From assembly GCA_026413225.1 (NCBI GenBank), contig CM048552.1, positions 54,451,001-54,515,000 of the forward strand: a DNA stretch of 64,000 nt, given 5' to 3'. The position numbers were made by a program, and so were the translations under genes. This document shows positions 1 to 59,800 of this stretch, one piece after another. Position 1 is the first letter of the stretch, and every line of letters starts with the position of its first letter. This DNA comes from Otis tarda. Lineage: Eukaryota; Chordata; Aves; Otidiformes; Otididae. Under the pieces are notes generated by a model. That model was not told the DNA's origin. It made no database searches and worked only from the letters and a program-made list of their open reading frames with translations.

Positions 1-701
1 AATAAAATTAATTTATTCTAGCCAAAATTTCCACATTTAATAGTATTTCAAGGTACAGTTAAATCTGAATTGTATTTCAAAGCAAGAAGGAAATATACTG
101 GACAAGATTTTGTTTTTCACCTGTTGCAGAAATAGTCTGGCAAAGATAACCAGTATTATAAACTGTGCCTCTCTGTACCTTTTTATTAAGGCATTTCATA
201 AAGAGTGGTCGTTTGAAAATTTTTCAAAGATACCTGTGGATTATAGCTATTAAAACATTTGTCAGTACTTGATGTGTAGGAAACTGAGTACCAGAATGGA
301 TGACAGCTGTACGGTTTTAAAATGTAATTTGCAATGTAAGATACATATTTTGGAATGTTTCTTCTTCAGTAGAGCCTGAAACCCGGAAAAGATTTTTAGA
401 AAAAGAGATTGTGTGTGGTAGTGGTGTTTAGCAACGGAAGGTGAGCAAGGAGGGAAGTAAAAGACACATTATGCTTTCCGGTTTTCAGTCTTCTGTTATA
501 GTGTATTTTTCTAGGTTTACTTGCAGTCAAATCAGTTAGAGCATGTGTAATGCCATGGTTAGCAAAGAAGGACCTGATGCATTTTAATTGGTTAATGAGG
601 TATGGAATTGACATGTCATATAATTTGAAGAATCCAGTTAATGCCACCTGCTTTTTCTTATGTAAAATCCAAAATACTATGTATTACTCAGCACTTCACA
701 G
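1..701 (+). other. Non-coding flank, probably ATF7IP intron
   Basis: AT-rich sequence with no recognisable exon. The short frames here have no coding character. I assign it to an ATF7IP intron because the ATF7IP 5' part must lie to the left of the window. Confidence 0.5.
692..701 (+). promoter_or_regulatory. Candidate splice acceptor of the Crypton exon
   Basis: The sequence ends in ttcacag just inside the open frame. Using it gives a phase-0 exon start (CTC TCA GAA). The first visible downstream ATF7IP exon at 15476 also starts in phase 0, so an upstream ATF7IP exon could splice to either. Two other AGs are possible: one ending at 691 (phase 2) and one ending at 708 (phase 1). The pyrimidine tract is weak. 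This is inference. Confidence 0.4.
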
Positions 702-2231
702 CTCTCAGAACATAAAGTAGTTCGCTATGTGCCGTATACCTGTGGCATATTTGATGGTACAACTTTGATCAATTGTTTCGAAAAGCAGTTGAAACAGGAA
801 GAGACTTCATCAGAAAATAAAGAAGCGGTAGAAGCAGCACAGATGAATTTTAACTTCCCCAAGGATGTCCTCTTTGGCTTGGAGGAAGAGGAAGAGGATG
901 CTAAGAGCATCAAAAACACCCACAAGCAGACTGGCTGGGCAGCTAACCTATTAAAACAATGGCTGACTAAAAATGGCAAGGATCCTAGCTTTGAATTGGT
1001 CCCAGTAAGCGAACTCAATGATATCTTAAGAGAGTTTTATTACACAATAAGGAATCATGATGGAAATACCTACAGTGTGGCAAGCTACAAGTCAATGCGT
1101 GCTGGCTTAAACCGGCATCTCAAAATGCCACCTTATAATCGTCAGATTTGCTTAATGAAGGACAAAGAGTTTGCTAGTGCAAACATGGTATTTGTGAGCG
1201 TGTTGAAGATGCTGCGCATGCAGGGAAAGGATGAGACTCACCACCATCCTCCTATAGCTGCCGAGGACTTGCGTAAGATTAAACAATCTGGTGTGCTGGG
1301 TTTGCACAGTCCACTGGCACTCGTCAACAAGGTGTGGTTTGATTTGCAGTTGCATTTTGCCAAACGAGGGAGGGAAATTTTAAGAGATCTTGCTCCGGAT
1401 GCTTTTGTTGTTGAGAAGGACAAGAACGGGCGTCGATATGCTATGTTTAGGTATCCTGGCAAAGGAAAAAATGGAGAAGATCCTCATAAAATGGGTAAAA
1501 TGTATGATATACCAGGGGACCCGAACTGTCCTGTTTTTTCCTTGGAGCTTTATTTGTCCAAGCTGCCTCCGGAGCCCCCTGCCTTTTACCTACATCCTTT
1601 AAAGCTAACGTCAGAGCAAATGCAAGAACAGCCTGTCTGGTACAAAAGAGAACCAATGGGGGTGAACTACTTAGGTACCATGATGCCCAGGATAAGTGTG
1701 GCAGCCAGGCTCTCTCAGCGATATACCAATCATTCTCTCCGAACTACCACCATCCAGCTACTGTGTGAAGCAGGACTGGGGCCTAGAGAAATAATGGCCG
1801 TGACAGGCCATCGCTCTGAGTCTGCTATTAGGCACTACTGGGGAGCTGCGGAAGTTCGCTACAGGGCTTGGTCAGATATAATGGAGAATAATGCCCCCAA
1901 TTACCTATATAGCAAGATCCCAAATGAAGCGATAAAAGAATCACTGTCTGGTGCCTCCAGCTCTTCTATAAACCGTGTTGTTCTAGAACAAAGCAAAATT
2001 TTATTCCCTAAGAAATCTGTGTTGCCACCCAGCACTAATTCAGTTACTTTAGTCCCTGAGGGACACCCAGCTCTGAATTCCAAAAGCCCTGTCCTATCGA
2101 ACCATGGTTCTTCCAAGGTGTTTCTCCCCAAGAACATGGCCGGTGGGAGCCTAACTGCTGGTCCGCTTCAAGGCTGTTGTAACAAACCTGTCTTTATAAA
2201 GCGTGTGATAAAACAAGAACCAATGACTTGA
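702..2231 (+). CDS. Crypton-derived tyrosine recombinase (DUF3504-like), probable 3'-terminal coding exon
   Basis: An uninterrupted frame of about 500 codons, open from 666 to the TGA at 2229-2231. Counting from the GTG codon at 729, residues about 68-200 look like the helical core-binding part of a Crypton/DUF3504 recombinase. Residues about 200-375 are the catalytic domain. Visible catalytic residues are R213 (in AKRGREIL, codon 1365), H335 and R338 (in NHSLRTT, codons 1731 and 1740), H361 (TGHRS, codon 1809) and nucleophile Y370 (IRHYWG, codon 1836). The Ser-rich tail ends in a VIKQEP motif, a SUMOylation-type consensus. An acidic stretch (LEEEEED) lies near residue 51. No in-frame ATG exists before 843 (M39), yet the codons upstream read like protein. 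I therefore place the exon start after a candidate acceptor (cacttcacag, ending at 701), which gives phase 0. Crypton recombinases cut and rejoin DNA through a tyrosine; known domesticated relatives are KCTD1, KIAA1958, the ZMYM2/3/4 group and QRICH1. It could be an ATF7IP alternative last exon, a separate gene, or a surviving mobile copy. Confidence 0.85.
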   Translation, partial: LSEHKVVRYVPYTCGIFDGTTLINCFEKQLKQEETSSENKEAVEAAQMNFNFPKDVLFGLEEEEEDAKSIKNTHKQTGWAANLLKQWLTKNGKDPSFELVPVSELNDILREFYYTIRNHDGNTYSVASYKSMRAGLNRHLKMPPYNRQICLMKDKEFASANMVFVSVLKMLRMQGKDETHHHPPIAAEDLRKIKQSGVLGLHSPLALVNKVWFDLQLHFAKRGREILRDLAPDAFVVEKDKNGRRYAMFRYPGKGKNGEDPHKMGKMYDIPGDPNCPVFSLELYLSKLPPEPPAFYLHPLKLTSEQMQEQPVWYKREPMGVNYLGTMMPRISVAARLSQRYTNHSLRTTTIQLLCEAGLGPREIMAVTGHRSESAIRHYWGAAEVRYRAWSDIMENNAPNYLYSKIPNEAIKESLSGASSSSINRVVLEQSKILFPKKSVLPPSTNSVTLVPEGHPALNSKSPVLSNHGSSKVFLPKNMAGGSLTAGPLQGCCNKPVFIKRVIKQEPMT

Positions 2232-15475: not shown

Positions 15476-15554
15476 AGCGGGAAGGTCACAGGAAGCAATG
15501 CAGGAGGTGTCATTGATCTTACACTGGATGAAGAGGATGATGGCTCTTCTCAAG
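15476..15554 (+). CDS. ATF7IP: ATF7IP exon carrying the SUMO-interacting motif
   Basis: The acceptor is ttgtctttcag and the donor CAAG|gtaggt. The exon is 79 bases, starts in phase 0 and ends with one extra base. It encodes [19 protein letters not shown] followed by EDDGSSQ. The hydrophobic VIDLTL followed by acids is a textbook SUMO-interacting motif; in the known protein this binds SUMO-modified partners such as MBD1. Confidence 0.95.
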
Positions 15555-18500: not shown

Positions 18501-21500
18501 TCACGTTTGTCCAGACTGTCATTTTCACTTGAACTACATTTTTACAGCACTGGTGTGTCTGGGTTTGTACCAGTTTGATCATGAGCACAGCTTCTCTAGG
18601 TCATGACTGAGAATGCACTCATATCACTTAAATTATCCAGTGGCAGCTGAAATGTGCATCAGTTTGTAAATATTCAAAGTAAACAGGTGTATGCATCTCT
18701 GTTGGAGTCTCTTCAGAGTCAAATAATTTGTTGAACACTGGGAAATCTCTCATACTCGTGGAAAATAAAAGAAGCTTGAACTAATTAACCTGTTAATTGA
18801 TGAAAGAGCAGGAAACATCTCACCTTTTGTTTTCAAAATGAGCATCACTTTACTACTCCTTTTACAGACTTGGAAAAAAGAAAGAAAATAAGATTATAAT
18901 ATTATCAAATGGCTTCAGTAAAGTAGTTCAGCTGTTCAGTCTCCAGAAGGACAATATGGTCTGCAGTGTATATTGTATTTTATTTCTGAGGTCTTGAATT
19001 GTATTTAATTTATCACATAGCAGTTTGTGAAGGCTACTGCTACTTCAGGCTATTAGCTGATGTTAAAGACAGCTCAGTGAGACCATCAAAGTAGTCTCCA
19101 GCTGCTAAAAAACCCAACATTTTGAGCTACACTGCAATTAACCCTATTCTTAACGGTTTGAAATCTAGTTAGTATACTTAATTGACAGTTTCTAAATGTG
19201 TTCTTCAATATGTTGTTGATATGTTTTCTCAAGAATGAAATACATATTAACATATTTTTTATTTTTATATTGTGCACTCTTTTACTAAATTAATGGTTGC
19301 TGCATGTACAATATTATTAGGGCAAATCTTTTTTAAATTAGTGCCCTTAAAACCTGCTCTTTTTTTCTTATGTGTTTTAGTTTTTGGTGGTGCCTCTCTG
19401 CCCACTGCTACTCTAAACTGGCTGAAATATCGAGGCAAAATCTTCATAATTCTTCTTTATTCAACTTGTGCATGGGCCTGGTAATATACAGACTTGCACA
19501 CAAATGAGTATTTTATGTTGTCACAAGTAAACTAAAGCAGGAAAAAAATTGCTGTAGTAAACTACAGATACAGACACTATTTTCTCCTTCTCACAGGTCA
19601 GTAAGTCATGTTGAGGAGGTTATCAGTGTGAGAAAACAAATTATCTTTTTAAAGTTTTCTATAAACAATAAAGCAATTCCCCCTTTTTAAGAAATTATGA
19701 AAATTCAAAATAGCAACAAACAAGGCTGACTAAGGAACAAAGGAAAGAGTCAGCAAATAACAAAAGGATGGAAGCGTCGAAGGTAGACAAGATTTATTTA
19801 GGGAGCTCTATCACTTTTTTGAAAGAAATTGAGTACAGCAGTGTTTAGGCCTTTTTAAGGTTTTAGGCTTTTTTTTTTTTTTTAATAGAAACTTTTCAAG
19901 ACTTTGGCATAGTGTTCCATTAAATTTAGGCTTCCAAATTGTGCCGAAATACGCAGACTTTGTGATGAGAGAGTGAAACATTATGGAGTATGGGGTGGGG
20001 AAAATTGAGATGGTGAAAATTAGGGAAATTGAATAGTTTTGTTTGCAGAATGAAAAGATCAAAGAAATGTCATGCTAGGAAATAGTCTTTGCTAATCTGT
20101 GAATGACAGAGTAGGGGAGGAGATTTAAAAACTCTGTGATGTTCTAGTTTCTGCTTACTGTTGTCTATAACTTTATTTTGTTTTAAAGCAGATGGCAAGA
20201 AGCAGAACCAGACACCTGTTACAGGACTGAGCATATCCACCCAGCCCTTGGCTCGACCCTTGCAGCCTTTGCAGCCAAACCCTGTGCAGCAGACAGCAGG
20301 TGTGCCAACAAGTGGACCTTCCCAGACCACCATACATGTATTACCTACAGGTACCTTCATTTTACATCAGTATGTGAATGCAACAACTGCTTTTTTTTCT
20401 TGTGTGTTCTACATTGTGCTGATCTTTTCAGGTGAACATTCTGAATGTCTGAGTCACTTTTTAGTCTTCCGTTCTAGTCAGTTTCCCTTTTTTTTTTTGT
20501 TTGTTTTAAACTGATTAAGTGAAAGGGAAAGATAGTCCAGTTGGTGTGGAAAGAATTCAGAATCAAATTAATTCCATGGAGAGGAAGAAGTTCTGCTAAG
20601 GATGGTCATGGAAATTACTAGATATACTGTTCGTAAAAGTGAAGGAGAAGAAAGATGTAGCAGTTCCATTATTTAAGTAATGGGGAAAAATAGCAACATT
20701 ACTCCTAGCTCTGTCCACCTGCACGTGGCAATTAATCCTTTTGGCAGAGTGAATGGCAAGGCTGGCATTGAAGTTCCATCCCTAGTTAAATGGTATTTTG
20801 TCTGTAGTGTGATTTTATTTTTCTTTCTTTCTAAAGAAAATAGATCCTCTTTTTTTTTTCCTTTATTTTACTCTTATTCTGCAGATTATTTTTGAAGATT
20901 GGTTGGAATTATGACTGATCTATTCTACTGACTCTTTTGTGGTGGGTTTTATATTCTACACAGCTGTGCTTCCATTCAGGACCTTTTTCTTTTCCTTTTT
21001 GGGGGAAGGTATTATGTTCATCTTTTCTGTTTGGAATGTATATATGTAAGCATCATTATTTCAGCTGAAAATTACGGTTTGTTTAGACTATATTCTTTTT
21101 TCTTGTAATATCAAAAGCAGAATTTCACAGAGACAGTTTTTGTTTTGCACGGCTCAGATGAGTCAGTTTTCCAAAGGAACAGGCATATCAGCTTAATGTC
21201 ATGAAATTCGAGTCTAGATTGTGATCTCTCTCTCTTTTTCCAGCTCCGACAACAGTGAATGTAACTCATCGGCCAGCAACTCAACCTGCTGCAAAACTTC
21301 CTATAACAAGAGCCCTTGCTAACCATCACGTGGTCTATACCACTCTTCCTGCACCACCAGCTCAGAATCCCGTGAGAGGAGCTGTCATGCCAAGCCCAGG
21401 TTTAAGGCCGGTCACCCCGCAGGCTGGAGGTAAGAGATGCTTTTTTCCGTGCACTTTTTAGCATGACACAGCTTCATATAATCTTCCTGATGGATGTGGC

Positions 21501-24500: not shown

Positions 24501-26964
24501 TTGGAAGAGTTCTGGATATTACCTGTAAGGTTATAAAATTACCTAGTTTATTCCAGCCAGTCAGTTTGCTGTGGGAATGAATGAAAGGGTAACACCTGCG
24601 CGTAACATCCGTTGTGGTGTCCATTCTGTGAGGGAGGACAAGCTTCTTGGACAGTGACTTACCTTTTTTGGTTTTGGTGCCATCCACAGCACAACCTTCT
24701 GGCATTTGAATACTGAGTGAATATCATTCTGGTGCAGCATTTCCCGTGCTTCCCCTCCCCACTAATTTCTTTCATGCTACAAATTTTTAAAACATCGTTC
24801 TGCTCCCTCTGCAGACATGAGTACTTGCTCTCTTTCACTTTTACAGCTTCATGGGATGGGAAGTGGTTTTGTTCTTATGCAGTACTTCATCAGTCTGATG
24901 GCGGTTTGAGGAGAGCGTGTCAGTTTGAAACTTTGTGTCATCCAGCTGAACCAAGGAGTTGTTCTTCCAGTGTTCTGTTGAGCCAATTGAGTATTGAATA
25001 CTCAAAGCATTCACTGTGCTTCTCATAGGTATGACAGTACGAATGCCTCAAACAACTGCCTATGTTGTGAACAACGGACTGACTCTTGGATCTGGAGCAC
25101 CTCAGCTTACAGTGCATCATCGACCACCACAAGTGCATGCTGTGAGTAGCCACCTTGAAATTACTTAATGCGATTTGCAGGCTCGTCTCTGCCTCAATGT
25201 CTTTCAGATTGCTTCTTAGTGTGAAATGCCTTGTAGACACTTTGCAGCCAGTTCACATGCATGGCGCCACCTTCTTACTTACAGCAACTTGTGCCAAGAA
25301 TGGTAAAAGCTCTGCAGTCTGTTAGCTTACCCCAGAGCTGTCCAGATTGCTAGTAGTACGTACTGAAAAACAGCACAGGAATTATCTGCAGGTGACTTGC
25401 AGAGTCAAGAGTACAGACAAACTGCCACTAAAAAGTTTAGTCATGGTTTGGCTATGAATTGGATGAGCAGTTTCTCAGTACAGCTTTTTGCAAAACTGAG
25501 GTAGAAGAAGGTACACACGAGATCCTCAAGGTTGACAACTCACAAATTTCAGAGGGTTTTATCACTGTTGGGAGTGGTTACTTCTGCATCTCCTCAAACC
25601 CCTTTTCATAAGTATTTGAGAATTTACTCTGACTCATTTCATATGGTTTTGTTGTTGAGACTGAACCAAATGTATTGCCTGCATACTTACTCACTGTTGG
25701 GCAGTCAAATAGCTTGTGATGTCCTGAAATGGTAAGTGTGTTACCAACAAAGTGGCTCACCATTCTTTCAGTCTAGACACCAGTCAACTTCATGCACTCT
25801 CCAGTGGTAAATAAGGAGAACAAATCAAGCCAATATCACACAGAACACTTACGGTGACAAAAACTACCCCAGATTCCAACATGAAAGGCTTGAAGAACAA
25901 CAAAATTTCATACTCATTGTAACTGCATTCCTGAAGTCATCTTAACTAACAGAAATGAGAGACCTAGGACTGTTTCTGTGGTATTGAAAAAAAAAAATCA
26001 GTGGAAAGCCACATTTGTGCCCTCATTTCAAAATTTTCTGGAAACTGAGACAGTTTTTGTTGTCAACTTAAGGTGATACAATCTATGTGATACCATTACC
26101 CATTCTTCCTTTTGTGACTGAAAACCCGCCTCTTAAAAAGATGAGTTGTCGGCTTAATCCATTGCCTGGGGTGTTTTGGATAGTGTGGGAACAGCAGCTC
26201 AGATGTAGATTAGCTCCAAGTCATTGTGAACCTGCCTGCTAAGTCTTGGTAAAGGGCGCAGTGTTCAGTCCATCCCCTCGTGGATGGGAAGCAAAGAGGA
26301 TATAAGGAAATAACTGTGGCAACGATCATCTGTACAGCTAGAGATTTATATGTGAGCAGTAAGAACTTGGTCCCACCCCTTCTCAACCTTTGCTGCTACT
26401 CTCTTGCCTCTGCACACAGGACTTAGAGTTGTGATGGCTGGGTGATTGCAGCCTCATTTGCTTCCGTTTGCCTGGAGAATGATGAATTGAAGCCTCTTTC
26501 CACTGCTGTAGACTCTGACCTTTCCTTATTGCTCTTGTGTTTCTTAGGAGCCACCACGCCCTGTACATCCTGCCCCACTCCCAGAGGCACCACAGCCACC
26601 ACGTTTGCCCCCTGAAGCTGCCAACACTTCTCTGCCTCAAAAGCCACAGCTGAAACTGGCACGGGTACAGAGCCAGAATGGTATTGTGTTGTCATGGAGC
26701 GTCATGGAAGTGGACCGGAGCTGCGCTGCTGTGGACAGTTACCATCTCTACGCCTACCATGAGGACCCGAGTGCCACTATGCCGTCCCAGTGGAAGAAGA
26801 TTGGGGAAGTGAAGGCCCTCCCGTTACCTATGGCGTGCACTCTTACACAGTTTGTGTCTGGCAGCAAATACTACTTTGCGGTCCGTGCTAAGGACATTTA
26901 TGGACGTTTTGGACCCTTCTGTGACCCCCAGTCCACAGATGTGATCTCTTCCCAGAGCAGTTAA
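15476..26964 (+). CDS. ATF7IP: ATF7IP (MCAF1), 3' half in five coding exons
   Basis: Activating transcription factor 7-interacting protein is a nuclear cofactor that stabilises SETDB1 and helps deposit H3K9me3 for silencing of genes and transposons, including with the HUSH complex. The visible exons (15476-15554, 20192-20350, 21244-21429, 25029-25141, 26548-26964) join in frame with GT-AG boundaries and encode 317 residues plus one split codon before the TAA at 26962-26964. In order they give the SUMO-interacting motif [11 protein letters not shown], a Pro/Thr/Gln-rich linker, and a C-terminal fibronectin type III domain known to bind MBD1 and SP1. The N-terminal region and SETDB1-binding coiled coil lie outside or upstream. 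Identity rests on recognising the near-mammalian sequence of the last exon ([39 protein letters not shown]). The neighbour PLBD1 is convergent, as expected for this locus. Confidence 0.96.
15555..20188 (+). other. ATF7IP intron with a degenerate CR1
   Basis: Contains one old CR1 fragment (about 16655-17202), a 14-base tandem duplication near 17668-17695 and a TTCTATTA-rich patch near 18325-18370. I see no other exon. Confidence 0.85.
16655..17202 (+). mobile_element. Degenerate CR1 LINE 3' fragment
   Basis: The order of blocks follows the CR1 3' region seen better preserved at 58383-59923: 'cacctgaaatagtgtcctgt', then 'gagaagagatc', 'gcctacaactcctt', and finally 'ggaggtcctttccagc' with 'gatgattctgtga'. 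Many substitutions and indels make it an old copy. Short frames inside it are not genes. Confidence 0.75.
20189..20350 (+). CDS. ATF7IP: ATF7IP linker exon with a tandem (NAGNAG) acceptor
   Basis: Encodes a Gln/Pro/Thr-rich linker ([19 protein letters not shown] and onward to HVLPT). The acceptor reads aaagcag, so splicing can use the AG ending at 20188 or at 20191. Both keep the frame and differ by one residue (Ala-Asp versus Asp at the junction). The donor is CTACAG|gtacct. Part of the frame continues into the intron but has no coding character there. Confidence 0.92.
21244..21429 (+). CDS. ATF7IP: ATF7IP linker exon
   Basis: The acceptor is ctttttccag and the donor CTGGAG|gtaaga. The exon is 186 bases, phase 1 to phase 1. 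It encodes a Pro/Ala/Thr-rich disordered segment ([18 protein letters not shown] through [11 protein letters not shown]), typical of the low-complexity stretch between the SUMO-interacting motif and the C-terminal domain. Confidence 0.94.
23265..23400 (+). mobile_element. Degenerate CR1 3' tail
   Basis: Matches the CR1 end in order: 'agcttgactagaccctgaac', then 'ggttgggccacatcatctcc', then 'gaggtcacttcaaacctgga' and 'tctgattctgtt'. Strongly diverged. Confidence 0.65.
25029..25141 (+). CDS. ATF7IP: ATF7IP linker exon before the FN3 exon
   Basis: The acceptor is cttctcatag and the donor CATGCT|gtgagt. The exon is 113 bases and enters in phase 1, leaving in phase 0. It encodes [20 protein letters not shown] followed by [17 protein letters not shown]. 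It joins in frame to the terminal exon. Confidence 0.94.
25142..26547 (+). other. Last ATF7IP intron
   Basis: 1.4 kb with no repeat that I recognise and no supported reading frame. The antisense frames at 26383-26695 overlap the FN3 exon and are its shadow. Confidence 0.85.
26548..26964 (+). CDS. ATF7IP: ATF7IP terminal coding exon with fibronectin type III domain
   Basis: The acceptor is gtgtttcttag. It has 138 codons plus TAA. The first 30 residues are a Pro-rich linker ([19 protein letters not shown]). The remainder folds as fibronectin type [19 protein letters not shown] strand region, YHLYAYHE, and the final [19 protein letters not shown]. In known ATF7IP this domain contacts MBD1 and transcription machinery. 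There is no sign of disruption. Confidence 0.97.
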
Positions 26965-56800: not shown

Positions 56801-59800
56801 GCTCATTACAGGTAGGACATGCCTATTATAGAATCATAGAATGATTCATATAAAGAATATATCATATAAATGAATCATATAAAGAAATAGCTCAGATACA
56901 AACTAGCACTTTCTCCTCCCTGCATCTGAACCTCAAGGATTCTCAAGCAGCCAAAAAAAACTGATGAGCTTTACAGGGCTCTTTAGATACAGGTTTATGA
57001 AAGGAATTAATGAGTTCTCTTCCTAGAAAGTCAAGGTTTCTTAGTATCTTCCTTATAACTCAGGCCCATCAGGACAGATCTTCCCATTTTATTGTGAACA
57101 GTTTTGTCTCCGAATTTGAGCCGATTCCCCATTCGTGAAAGCCCCAGAGGAAGTTCTACACAAGAAAGAGATGTGCATTTTACTAAAACTCAACTGTTCA
57201 TTATTTAGCACTCCCAACTTCTCTAAATTCTTGATATGGTGAAACCAAGACAATACGGGGTCAACTACAATTACTCAAGTCCTCCAACTCACATTGAGAA
57301 ACCTATGAGATATTAGACTTAAGGACAGCATTGCAATTACGATAGCTCTACTAGAGTTAAAGAAGCTCTGCTATTACATGCGAGCTGATGATCCAGAACA
57401 CAATTCTAATTGAATTTAAAAAACAAACAAAAAAAACCCCACAAGTGAAAAAAAAAAACCCCAACACCACAACAAACTCAACCCTACCCTATTTGGCCTG
57501 CCACAGCACTGACCATGTATTTTGTAATTGGAAACTTAGAAAAAGAGACGACATTTAGCAACATAAAAACATACTCCAAAATAGGGATGCTTTTAAGATT
57601 TGAAATTTGATGCTTGGAAATAAGAATGAAAGCTTTAATAAACTCCCTATGTACTGATTCATGCTGTTGCAGCTACTCTTTATATGTAGACGGTCATTTG
57701 CTCAATAACAATTGTAAAGTAATGACAGCAAGCACTTTAAAAGTGTCCGTCCTTCCAACATTCACACATGGATACAAAAGTCACCCCCAGTCTCATCAGC
57801 ACATGCGTGCCCAGGGCTCCAAGTCCTGTGCAAAGGATGTGTGGTGGCATGACCCGAGTGCTCAGTCACATTATCTACACTGAACAGCCACACAAGTTTT
57901 TTAATGTTTTGACATTTTAGAATGGCATGCAGAATGAGTGCTTGCCACTAACTGTCCTTTTTTTTAAAAAAAAAAAAATATCAGTTTCCCTTTTCCCATC
58001 TTTGTCCTCTGACAGCCCATCCCCAGCTACTGAAAAAGAGACGCAGTAATCTTACTGTTCGTTTCTGTAGTTTAGCCCACTCGAGGGCTCCCATGTACAG
58101 CCCATCCAACTGTGCAATAATATAGCCAGCATGCCTCCAAAAGGGGTCATCCTTATTATTTCTGATTTGTTGTCTTGTCCATTGATCTTGTTTCCTGCAG
58201 AGGAACAAACAGGTTGGGGTTTTCTTGTTTCTATTTTAGAGTATAACTGACAATGCAGGGAAGGGACAAATGTATTATGGCCCAGATGATCCAACTTTCC
58301 TAGTGTTTTGAGGTAGATATGCCTTGGAAATACTTTATACATAAGTGTTACATCCTCTGGGTGTGAACATTCAGATCCAGGTTCAAGACTGTCTAAGGAA
58401 CCTGAAGGAGCACAAGTCCATGGGACCTGATGAGATGCACCCACGGGTCCTGAGGGAACTGGCGGATAAAGTTGCTAAGCCATTATCCATCATAGCTGAG
58501 AAGCTGTGGCAGTCCAGGGAAGTTTCCACTGACTGCAGTAACATAACCCCCATTTTTAAAAAGGGAAACAAGGAAGACCCAGGGAAACACAGGCCAGTCA
58601 GTTACTTGGCAAAATCATGGAGTAGATCTTCCTGGAGACTATGTGAAGGCAGATGGAAAATAAGGAGGTGATCAGTGACAGCCAACACGACTTCACCAAA
58701 GGCAAATTGTACCTGACCAATTTGGTGGCCTTTTATGATAGGGTTACAGCACCAGCAGATAAGGGAAGAGCAACTGACATCATCTACCTGGACTTGTGCA
58801 AAGCATTTGACAGTGTCCTGCACAACATCCTTGTCTCTAAACTGGAGAGACATGGATTTGATGGATGGTCCACTCAGTGGATAAGGAACTGGTTGGCTGG
58901 TTGCACTCAGAGTTGCGGTCAATGGCTTGATGTCCAAGTGGAGACCAGTGACAAATGATGTTCCTCAGGGGTTGCTACTGGGACTAGTCCTGTTTAATAT
59001 CTTTGTCAGTGACACGGATGGTGGGATTGAGTGCACCCTCAGCAAGGCTGCCAAACAACACCAAGCTGTGTGGTGCAGTCAACACACTGGAGGGGAGGGA
59101 TGCTATCCAGAGGGATCTTGACAGGCTGGAGAGGTGGGCCTGTGCAAGCCTCATGAAGTTCAACCAGGCCAAGTGCAAGGTCCTGCACATGGGTTGTGGC
59201 AATCCCAAGCACAAATCCAGGCTGGGTGGAGAATGGATTAAGAGCAGCCCTGAGGAGAAGGACTTGGGGCCACTAGTGGATGAGAAGCTCAACACGAGTC
59301 AGCAATGTACACTTGCAGCCCAGAAAGGCAATGACATACTGGGCTGCATCAAAAGAAGCGTGGCCAGCAGCTTGAGGGAGGTGATTCTGCCCCTCTACTC
59401 TCCTCTCGTGAGACCCCACCTGGAGTACTGGGTCCAGCTCTGGAGCCCCCAACATAAGAAGGACATGGACCAGTTGGAGTGAGTCCAGAGGAGGGCCACA
59501 AAATGATCAGAGGGCTGGAGCATCTCTTCTATGAAGACATGCTAAGAGAGTTGGGGTGGTTCAGCCTGAGGAAGAGTAGGCTCCAGGGAGACTTCCAGTG
59601 GCCTTCCAGTACATAAAGGGGAAAGATGGAGAGAAACTTTTTAGCAGGGCCTGTTGTGATAGGACAAGGGGTAATGGTTTTAAAATAGAAGTAGGTAGAT
59701 TTAGACTTGATATAAGGAAAAAAAAAAAATTACAGTGAGAGTGATGGAACACTGTAACAGGCTGCCCAGAGAAGTGGTAGATGCCCCATCCCTGGACACA

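Follow-up and report, generated by a model that had tools for sequence, protein, structure and literature searches.

The stretch of DNA analysed here, called the window below, comprises 64,000 nucleotides of the Otis tarda genome (assembly GCA_026413225.1, contig CM048552.1, positions 54,451,001 to 54,515,000 of the forward strand). It carries a long open frame coding a Crypton-type tyrosine recombinase (YR) and, downstream on the same strand, five exons of ATF7IP, located by mapping first an FN3 probe and then the ATF7IP proteins of a snake, a lizard, a stingray and a parrot to the window. The frame at 666-2231 (+ strand) has 521 codons from stop to stop and is the longest found by an open reading frame scan of the 64 kb, followed by one of 204 aa; the longest frame in 40 simulated first-order Markov sequences of 64 kb had 189 codons. 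The features of the locus are the following.

702 to 2231, + strand: YR exon, probable alternative terminal exon of ATF7IP, with 509 codons and a TGA stop, preceded by a phase-0 acceptor AG at 700-701.
Exon starts 786 (QLKQE) or 789 (LKQE), + strand: putative tandem alternative acceptors AAGCAG at 783-788, from the sequence and database models.
2608 to 2613, + strand: AATAAA, candidate poly(A) signal, 377 nt past the YR stop.
15476 to 15554, + strand: ATF7IP exon with VIDLTLDEE; it begins in phase 0, and most YR isoforms lack it.
20192 to 20350, + strand: ATF7IP exon from protein mapping, right edge approximate.
21244 to 21428, + strand: ATF7IP exon from protein mapping, right edge approximate.
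25028 to 25142, + strand: ATF7IP exon from protein mapping, both edges approximate.
26548 to 26964, + strand: last coding ATF7IP exon, with the FN3 domain (PF16794, confirmed by Pfam) and a TAA stop.

The VIDLTLDEE segment is taken here to be a SUMO-interacting motif (SIM). The YR exon begins in phase 0, as does the SIM exon. The window gave no match at E 1e-3 to any ATF7IP exon that precedes the SIM exon; this, together with the junction shared by protein models (see below), places the YR in the intron directly before the SIM exon. The candidate poly(A) signal is not above chance, the density of A(A/T)TAAA being 1.25 per kb on the + strand. A Pfam search of the frame gave DUF3504 (E 3e-15, passing the cut-off) and Phage_integrase (E 5e-5, falling short of it), while NCBIfam and phage records gave no match to the YR. 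The first-pass annotation, made from the sequence alone, had read an intact frame of about 500 codons at 702-2231 coding a Crypton-type recombinase within the ATF7IP locus. The reading holds: the frame is the one at 666-2231 with its start placed after the AG at 700-701, the DUF3504 match and Crypton YR relatives in fish, newt and mollusc identify the recombinase, and the exons from SIM to FN3 follow on the same strand.

Protein searches, which scored only the ~8000 candidates with most shared words in a database whose representatives stand for 90% clusters, found close relatives in manakin, sea turtle, coelacanth and chimaera. The first 230 residues of the chimaera protein (P0008) are 63% identical to ray ATF7IP and are followed by the YR. 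A second search, tuned to fusion-sized proteins, gave 142 matches, of which 120 were listed; both ATF7IP and YR were matched in 109 of these. The named carriers of ATF7IP::YR models are many birds, sea turtles, a softshell turtle, the frog Ascaphus, two sharks and one ray, and the nearest named protein among the matches listed is from Chlamydotis macqueenii (Macqueen's bustard; 99%). Among the listed matches above 60% identity, P0001-P0007, P0009 and P0010 were seen without their neighbouring sequence; all the others have an ATF7IP part. One end point of the ATF7IP part is common to 108 of the 109 models (107 recognised by pattern, P0092 by eye), with junction residues AEGTTQ in most birds, TESTAQ in turtles, AESTTQ in the frog and PPSGNQ in sharks. 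At this same point canonical ATF7IP runs on into the SIM exon. SIM and FN3 are both missing from 106 of the 109 (exceptions: P0169, P0183 and P0189). The exon start at 702 is used by 27 of the 108 models (26 by pattern, P0092 by eye); the other 39 and 42 start 28 or 29 residues inside the exon, at the tandem acceptor. Where two models of a single species differ in this way by one codon, the pair would be hard to explain without reads behind the predictions.

Two of the exceptions, P0169 (Willisornis) and P0183 (Amazona collaria), splice from inside the YR exon to the SIM exon, which gives an ATF7IP with an internal YR and FN3 kept. An ATF7IP model of the ray Mobula birostris (P0053) has, between the junction shared by the ATF7IP::YR models and the SIM, a helix-turn-helix stretch (PF13518) that we presume to be Tc1-like.

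A tree of 46 rows recovers a single starred clade (100/100) made up of the 21 rows labelled ATF7IP-YR and the sturgeon protein P0014, whose branch is long, and separate from teleost and newt Cryptons; P0004, P0006, P0009 and P0010 bear that label though no ATF7IP part was observed on them. The clade divides into cartilaginous fishes (94/83) and bony vertebrates (100/100, starred). The common junction and the single clade thus put the YR in one place across species, as expected of a domesticated gene. P0189, from the teleost Cololabis saira, resembles a second ATF7IP::YR fusion but was set aside: its YR comes after the SIM, has lost the tetrad and groups with teleost Cryptons. It may be a separate capture event, ATF7IP then having taken up a Crypton twice, or a model artefact. 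In newt and teleosts, the predicted proteins P0012, P0184, P0192 and P0193 combine a Crypton YR with KRAB, SCAN or zinc-finger domains, or are named MORC3; these are possible further captures or model artefacts.

Purifying selection on the YR, also suggested by the first-pass annotation, is supported at the protein level by bird-shark identity and by a neutral simulation. Between bird (window, penguin or duck) and the two sharks and ray, the catalytic part is 79-81% and the N-terminal core 72-74% identical; identity is lower in the ATF7IP portion of these models (penguin and duck; 42-44%), in the first 73 YR residues (37-47%) and in the tail (25-44%). Window and duck differ in 3 of 322 core residues and in 30 of 114 tail residues. 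Neutral simulation at 0.2 changes per site left 66% protein identity and ~9 stops, and the frame was open in none of 300 runs.

The AlphaFold model of the YR, built from 51 rows, has a mean predicted local distance difference test (pLDDT) of 71, with 220 of 509 residues at 90 or above (an earlier model from 11 closely related rows, mean 37, was discarded). The modelled fold is that of a tyrosine recombinase, and the predicted catalytic tetrad R-H-R-Y is present in the alignment.

888 to 1301, + strand: predicted N-terminal core-binding part, YR residues 63-200 (AlphaFold model and Cre match).
1302 to 1886, + strand: predicted catalytic domain, DUF3504 / Phage_integrase, YR residues 201-395 (Pfam, AlphaFold model and Cre match).
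1365 to 1367, + strand: putative catalytic Arg I, R222 in KRGRE (alignment; R-x-x-E; loop mean pLDDT 67).
1731 to 1742, + strand: putative catalytic His-x-x-Arg, H344 and R347 in NHSLR (alignment including XerA and S. aureus integrase).
1809 to 1811, + strand: putative second His/Trp position, H370, the His of TGH (same alignment).
1836 to 1838, + strand: putative nucleophilic Tyr, Y379 in RHYW (same alignment).
2208 to 2219, + strand: C-terminal I-K-Q-E, fitting the SUMO-acceptor consensus and also found in sharks.

The R-x-x-E around R222 is presumably the same as in Cre. The model matches the Cre fold, but identity to Cre is ~11%, and the YR differs from Cre by an extra disordered tail and by having no known target site. 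The first 62 residues are likewise disordered in the model, and weak spots in its core are the R222 block (mean 67), residues 251-260 (68) and the Y379 block (78). The first Foldseek match by E-value is QRICH1 (9hjt). The C-terminal K-Q-E matching the SUMO-acceptor consensus occurs in 104 of 115 orthologue rows and K-K-E in one (isoforms of one species counted apart); the 10 rows that do not fit are the truncated ends of six galliforms and one hoazin, P0169, P0170 and P0004.

Survival of the active site was counted in 67 bird representatives from the second protein search (66 named species, one row each, and the window), leaving out extra isoforms, the partial P0182 and P0183, and P0001-P0004, P0006 and P0007. 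The four letters are complete in 62 of them and in all 11 full-length named non-bird rows (10 species, Caretta twice: P0005, P0163, P0165-P0168, P0171, P0179-P0181 and P0008). They are also present in P0006, P0009 and the partial sturgeon P0014; the Latimeria model P0010 stops short of the Tyr and was left out of the count. Tyr is changed to Cys, with the frame open, in pigeon and in P0004. The birds that lost the Tyr or the end differ from the bird consensus, itself built from the same 67 rows, at 5 (pigeon), 10 (hoazin) and 13 (chicken, quail and grouse, each) of 263 core residues, against a median of 2 for the other 62 rows. The associated Mann-Whitney p of 2e-4 counts kindred galliforms as independent and is not used as support. 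Mousebird (19/263, end damaged) and takahe (11/263, a small deletion beside the Tyr) keep all four letters. The divergence of rows damaged near the active site fits relaxed constraint. In the galliforms P0172-P0177 the frame is cut after HSLR with a common new end, and in hoazin P0178 with a different one. Chicken, quail and grouse, which have the common truncation, differ pairwise at just 2-4 of 263 residues; the galliform remainder seems to be held again, and it is therefore improbable, for galliforms at any rate, that catalysis accounts for all of the function.

The first-pass annotation had suspected an undescribed domestication. This did not stand, and the locus itself is already known. 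Kojima & Jurka 2011 (PMC3212892) reported the Crypton in an intron of ATF7IP: the zebra finch copy is intact, those of chicken and turkey carry a frameshift at one common position, and human, horse, kangaroo and platypus retain relics. These authors suggested that the sequence is under strong selection, is fused with ATF7IP and, in some birds, may be catalytically active. Frith 2022 (PMC9004415) dated the insertion to the gnathostome ancestor, noted intact frames in alligator and chimaera and suggested exaptation. Catalytic residues at the same locus were already marked in an alignment in these prior reports. The insertion is not discussed in the available portions of PMC10380595 and PMC10579616, and no other treatment of it was recognised among the papers that further searches listed, in a literature whose coverage was without most subscription journals. 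Relative to the available text of the two reports, the common phase-0 junction, the models in dozens of birds, turtles, frog, sharks and ray, the loss of SIM and FN3, the Cre-fold model, the active-site tally and the near-fixed truncated galliform frame are additions.

We consider it likely that the YR exon is a domesticated alternative last exon of ATF7IP. The frame, its position and phase, the common junction in predicted models, protein-level constraint, the predicted fold and the active-site letters are the observed basis. In an ancestral jawed vertebrate, a Crypton would have entered an intron of ATF7IP; joining the exon that precedes the SIM exon to 702 (or to 786/789) would give an isoform that keeps the N-terminal part with the SETDB1-binding region, drops SIM and FN3 and gains a Cre-fold tyrosine recombinase. 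The binding region (ATF7IP_BD, Pfam) is present in the YR isoform P0076. ATF7IP binds SETDB1 through a coiled coil in a 1:2 SETDB1:ATF7IP complex (PMC12167477), and canonical and YR copies could therefore share one complex. If the isoform is made and still binds SETDB1, its YR part may bind DNA or DNA junctions directly, replacing recruitment via SUMO or via the FN3 partners MBD1, ZMYM2 and MGA (PMC7706265). Its likeliest working would be to target SETDB1-ATF7IP to DNA directly, strand exchange being possible. The frame is real and deeply conserved, and it is probably a functional alternative exon.

Several points weigh against this reading. The ATF7IP::YR isoforms are database predictions, and Kojima & Jurka 2011 found no mRNA or expressed sequence tag (PMC3212892). 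The acceptor at 702 serves just 27 of the 108 models and the inner tandem acceptor 81. In P0169 and P0183 the YR is joined onward to the SIM exon and is not terminal. YR ends are damaged in galliforms, hoazin and mousebird. The names among the YR matches listed include neither squamates nor mammals; since mammals, moreover, have relics only (PMC3212892), the YR would be dispensable in large groups.

How the exon would work is a further question. We hold the chances evenly balanced that the YR is a non-catalytic DNA- or chromatin-binding domain whose active-site letters persist through DNA backbone contacts. The truncated yet conserved galliform frames and the Cys of pigeon and P0004 in open frames argue for it, as do the other DUF3504 genes without active site, several of which are transcriptional regulators (PMC3212892); binding alone leaves unexplained why the Tyr is retained in most other lineages since cartilaginous fishes. 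Selection for catalysis, the YR being a working site-specific recombinase, topoisomerase or junction resolvase in most carriers, is a less probable alternative. It accords with the tetrad in 62/67 birds and 11/11 non-bird rows, with the loss of Tyr and second Arg from the six other human Crypton-derived genes (PMC3212892) and with the greater distance of Tyr-less birds from the consensus. Against it, galliforms keep a near-uniform frame without the Tyr, mousebird and takahe are equally diverged though counted intact, no substrate site is known, and the R222 loop is modelled at moderate confidence only. An unselected fossil open by chance, or DNA conserved merely as regulatory sequence, is very improbable and was rejected: loss or decay in mammals (PMC3212892) and in several bird lineages would suit it, but no neutral run stayed open and 66% simulated identity falls below the 79-81% of the catalytic part between birds and sharks. 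A live or recently active Crypton, to which the intact frame and active site would also correspond, is scarcely credible and was rejected on the intron and phase common to sharks and birds, the single clade and the lack of a second YR copy in the 64-kb window.

Of the six other frames of at least 150 aa in the window, three were compared with Pfam and gave no match; Rfam gave nothing at gathering score on the window. A 164-codon frame at 58988-59482 (+ strand), without Pfam match, resembles the terminal part of a bird CR1 reverse transcriptase.

In the CSB-PiggyBac fusion the transposon-derived part is likewise an alternative terminal exon. That fusion also joins a host chromatin gene to a transposase (PMC2268245), but of the DDE type and in a different gene. 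The DUF3504 genes KCTD1, KIAA1958, ZMYM2/3/4 and QRICH1 carry a Crypton-derived YR domain in vertebrate proteins as well; in them the catalytic Tyr and the second Arg are gone (PMC3212892), whereas the ATF7IP YR keeps the tetrad and, unlike them, belongs as an alternative exon to a gene with a YR-free product as well. It is conceivable, if rather doubtful, that a catalytically competent YR has been kept from sharks to birds as an alternative end of ATF7IP, the only such case among the known Crypton-derived genes of vertebrates, which would join heterochromatin formation to strand exchange or junction resolving, galliforms having dropped the chemistry and kept the domain. A recombinase with an intact predicted active site, its catalytic part ~80% identical between sharks and birds, lies within a transposon-silencing gene. 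This makes it testable whether a domesticated tyrosine recombinase serves vertebrates as an enzyme and whether a captured recombinase can steer SETDB1 to DNA, with the lineages lacking the Tyr as natural controls.
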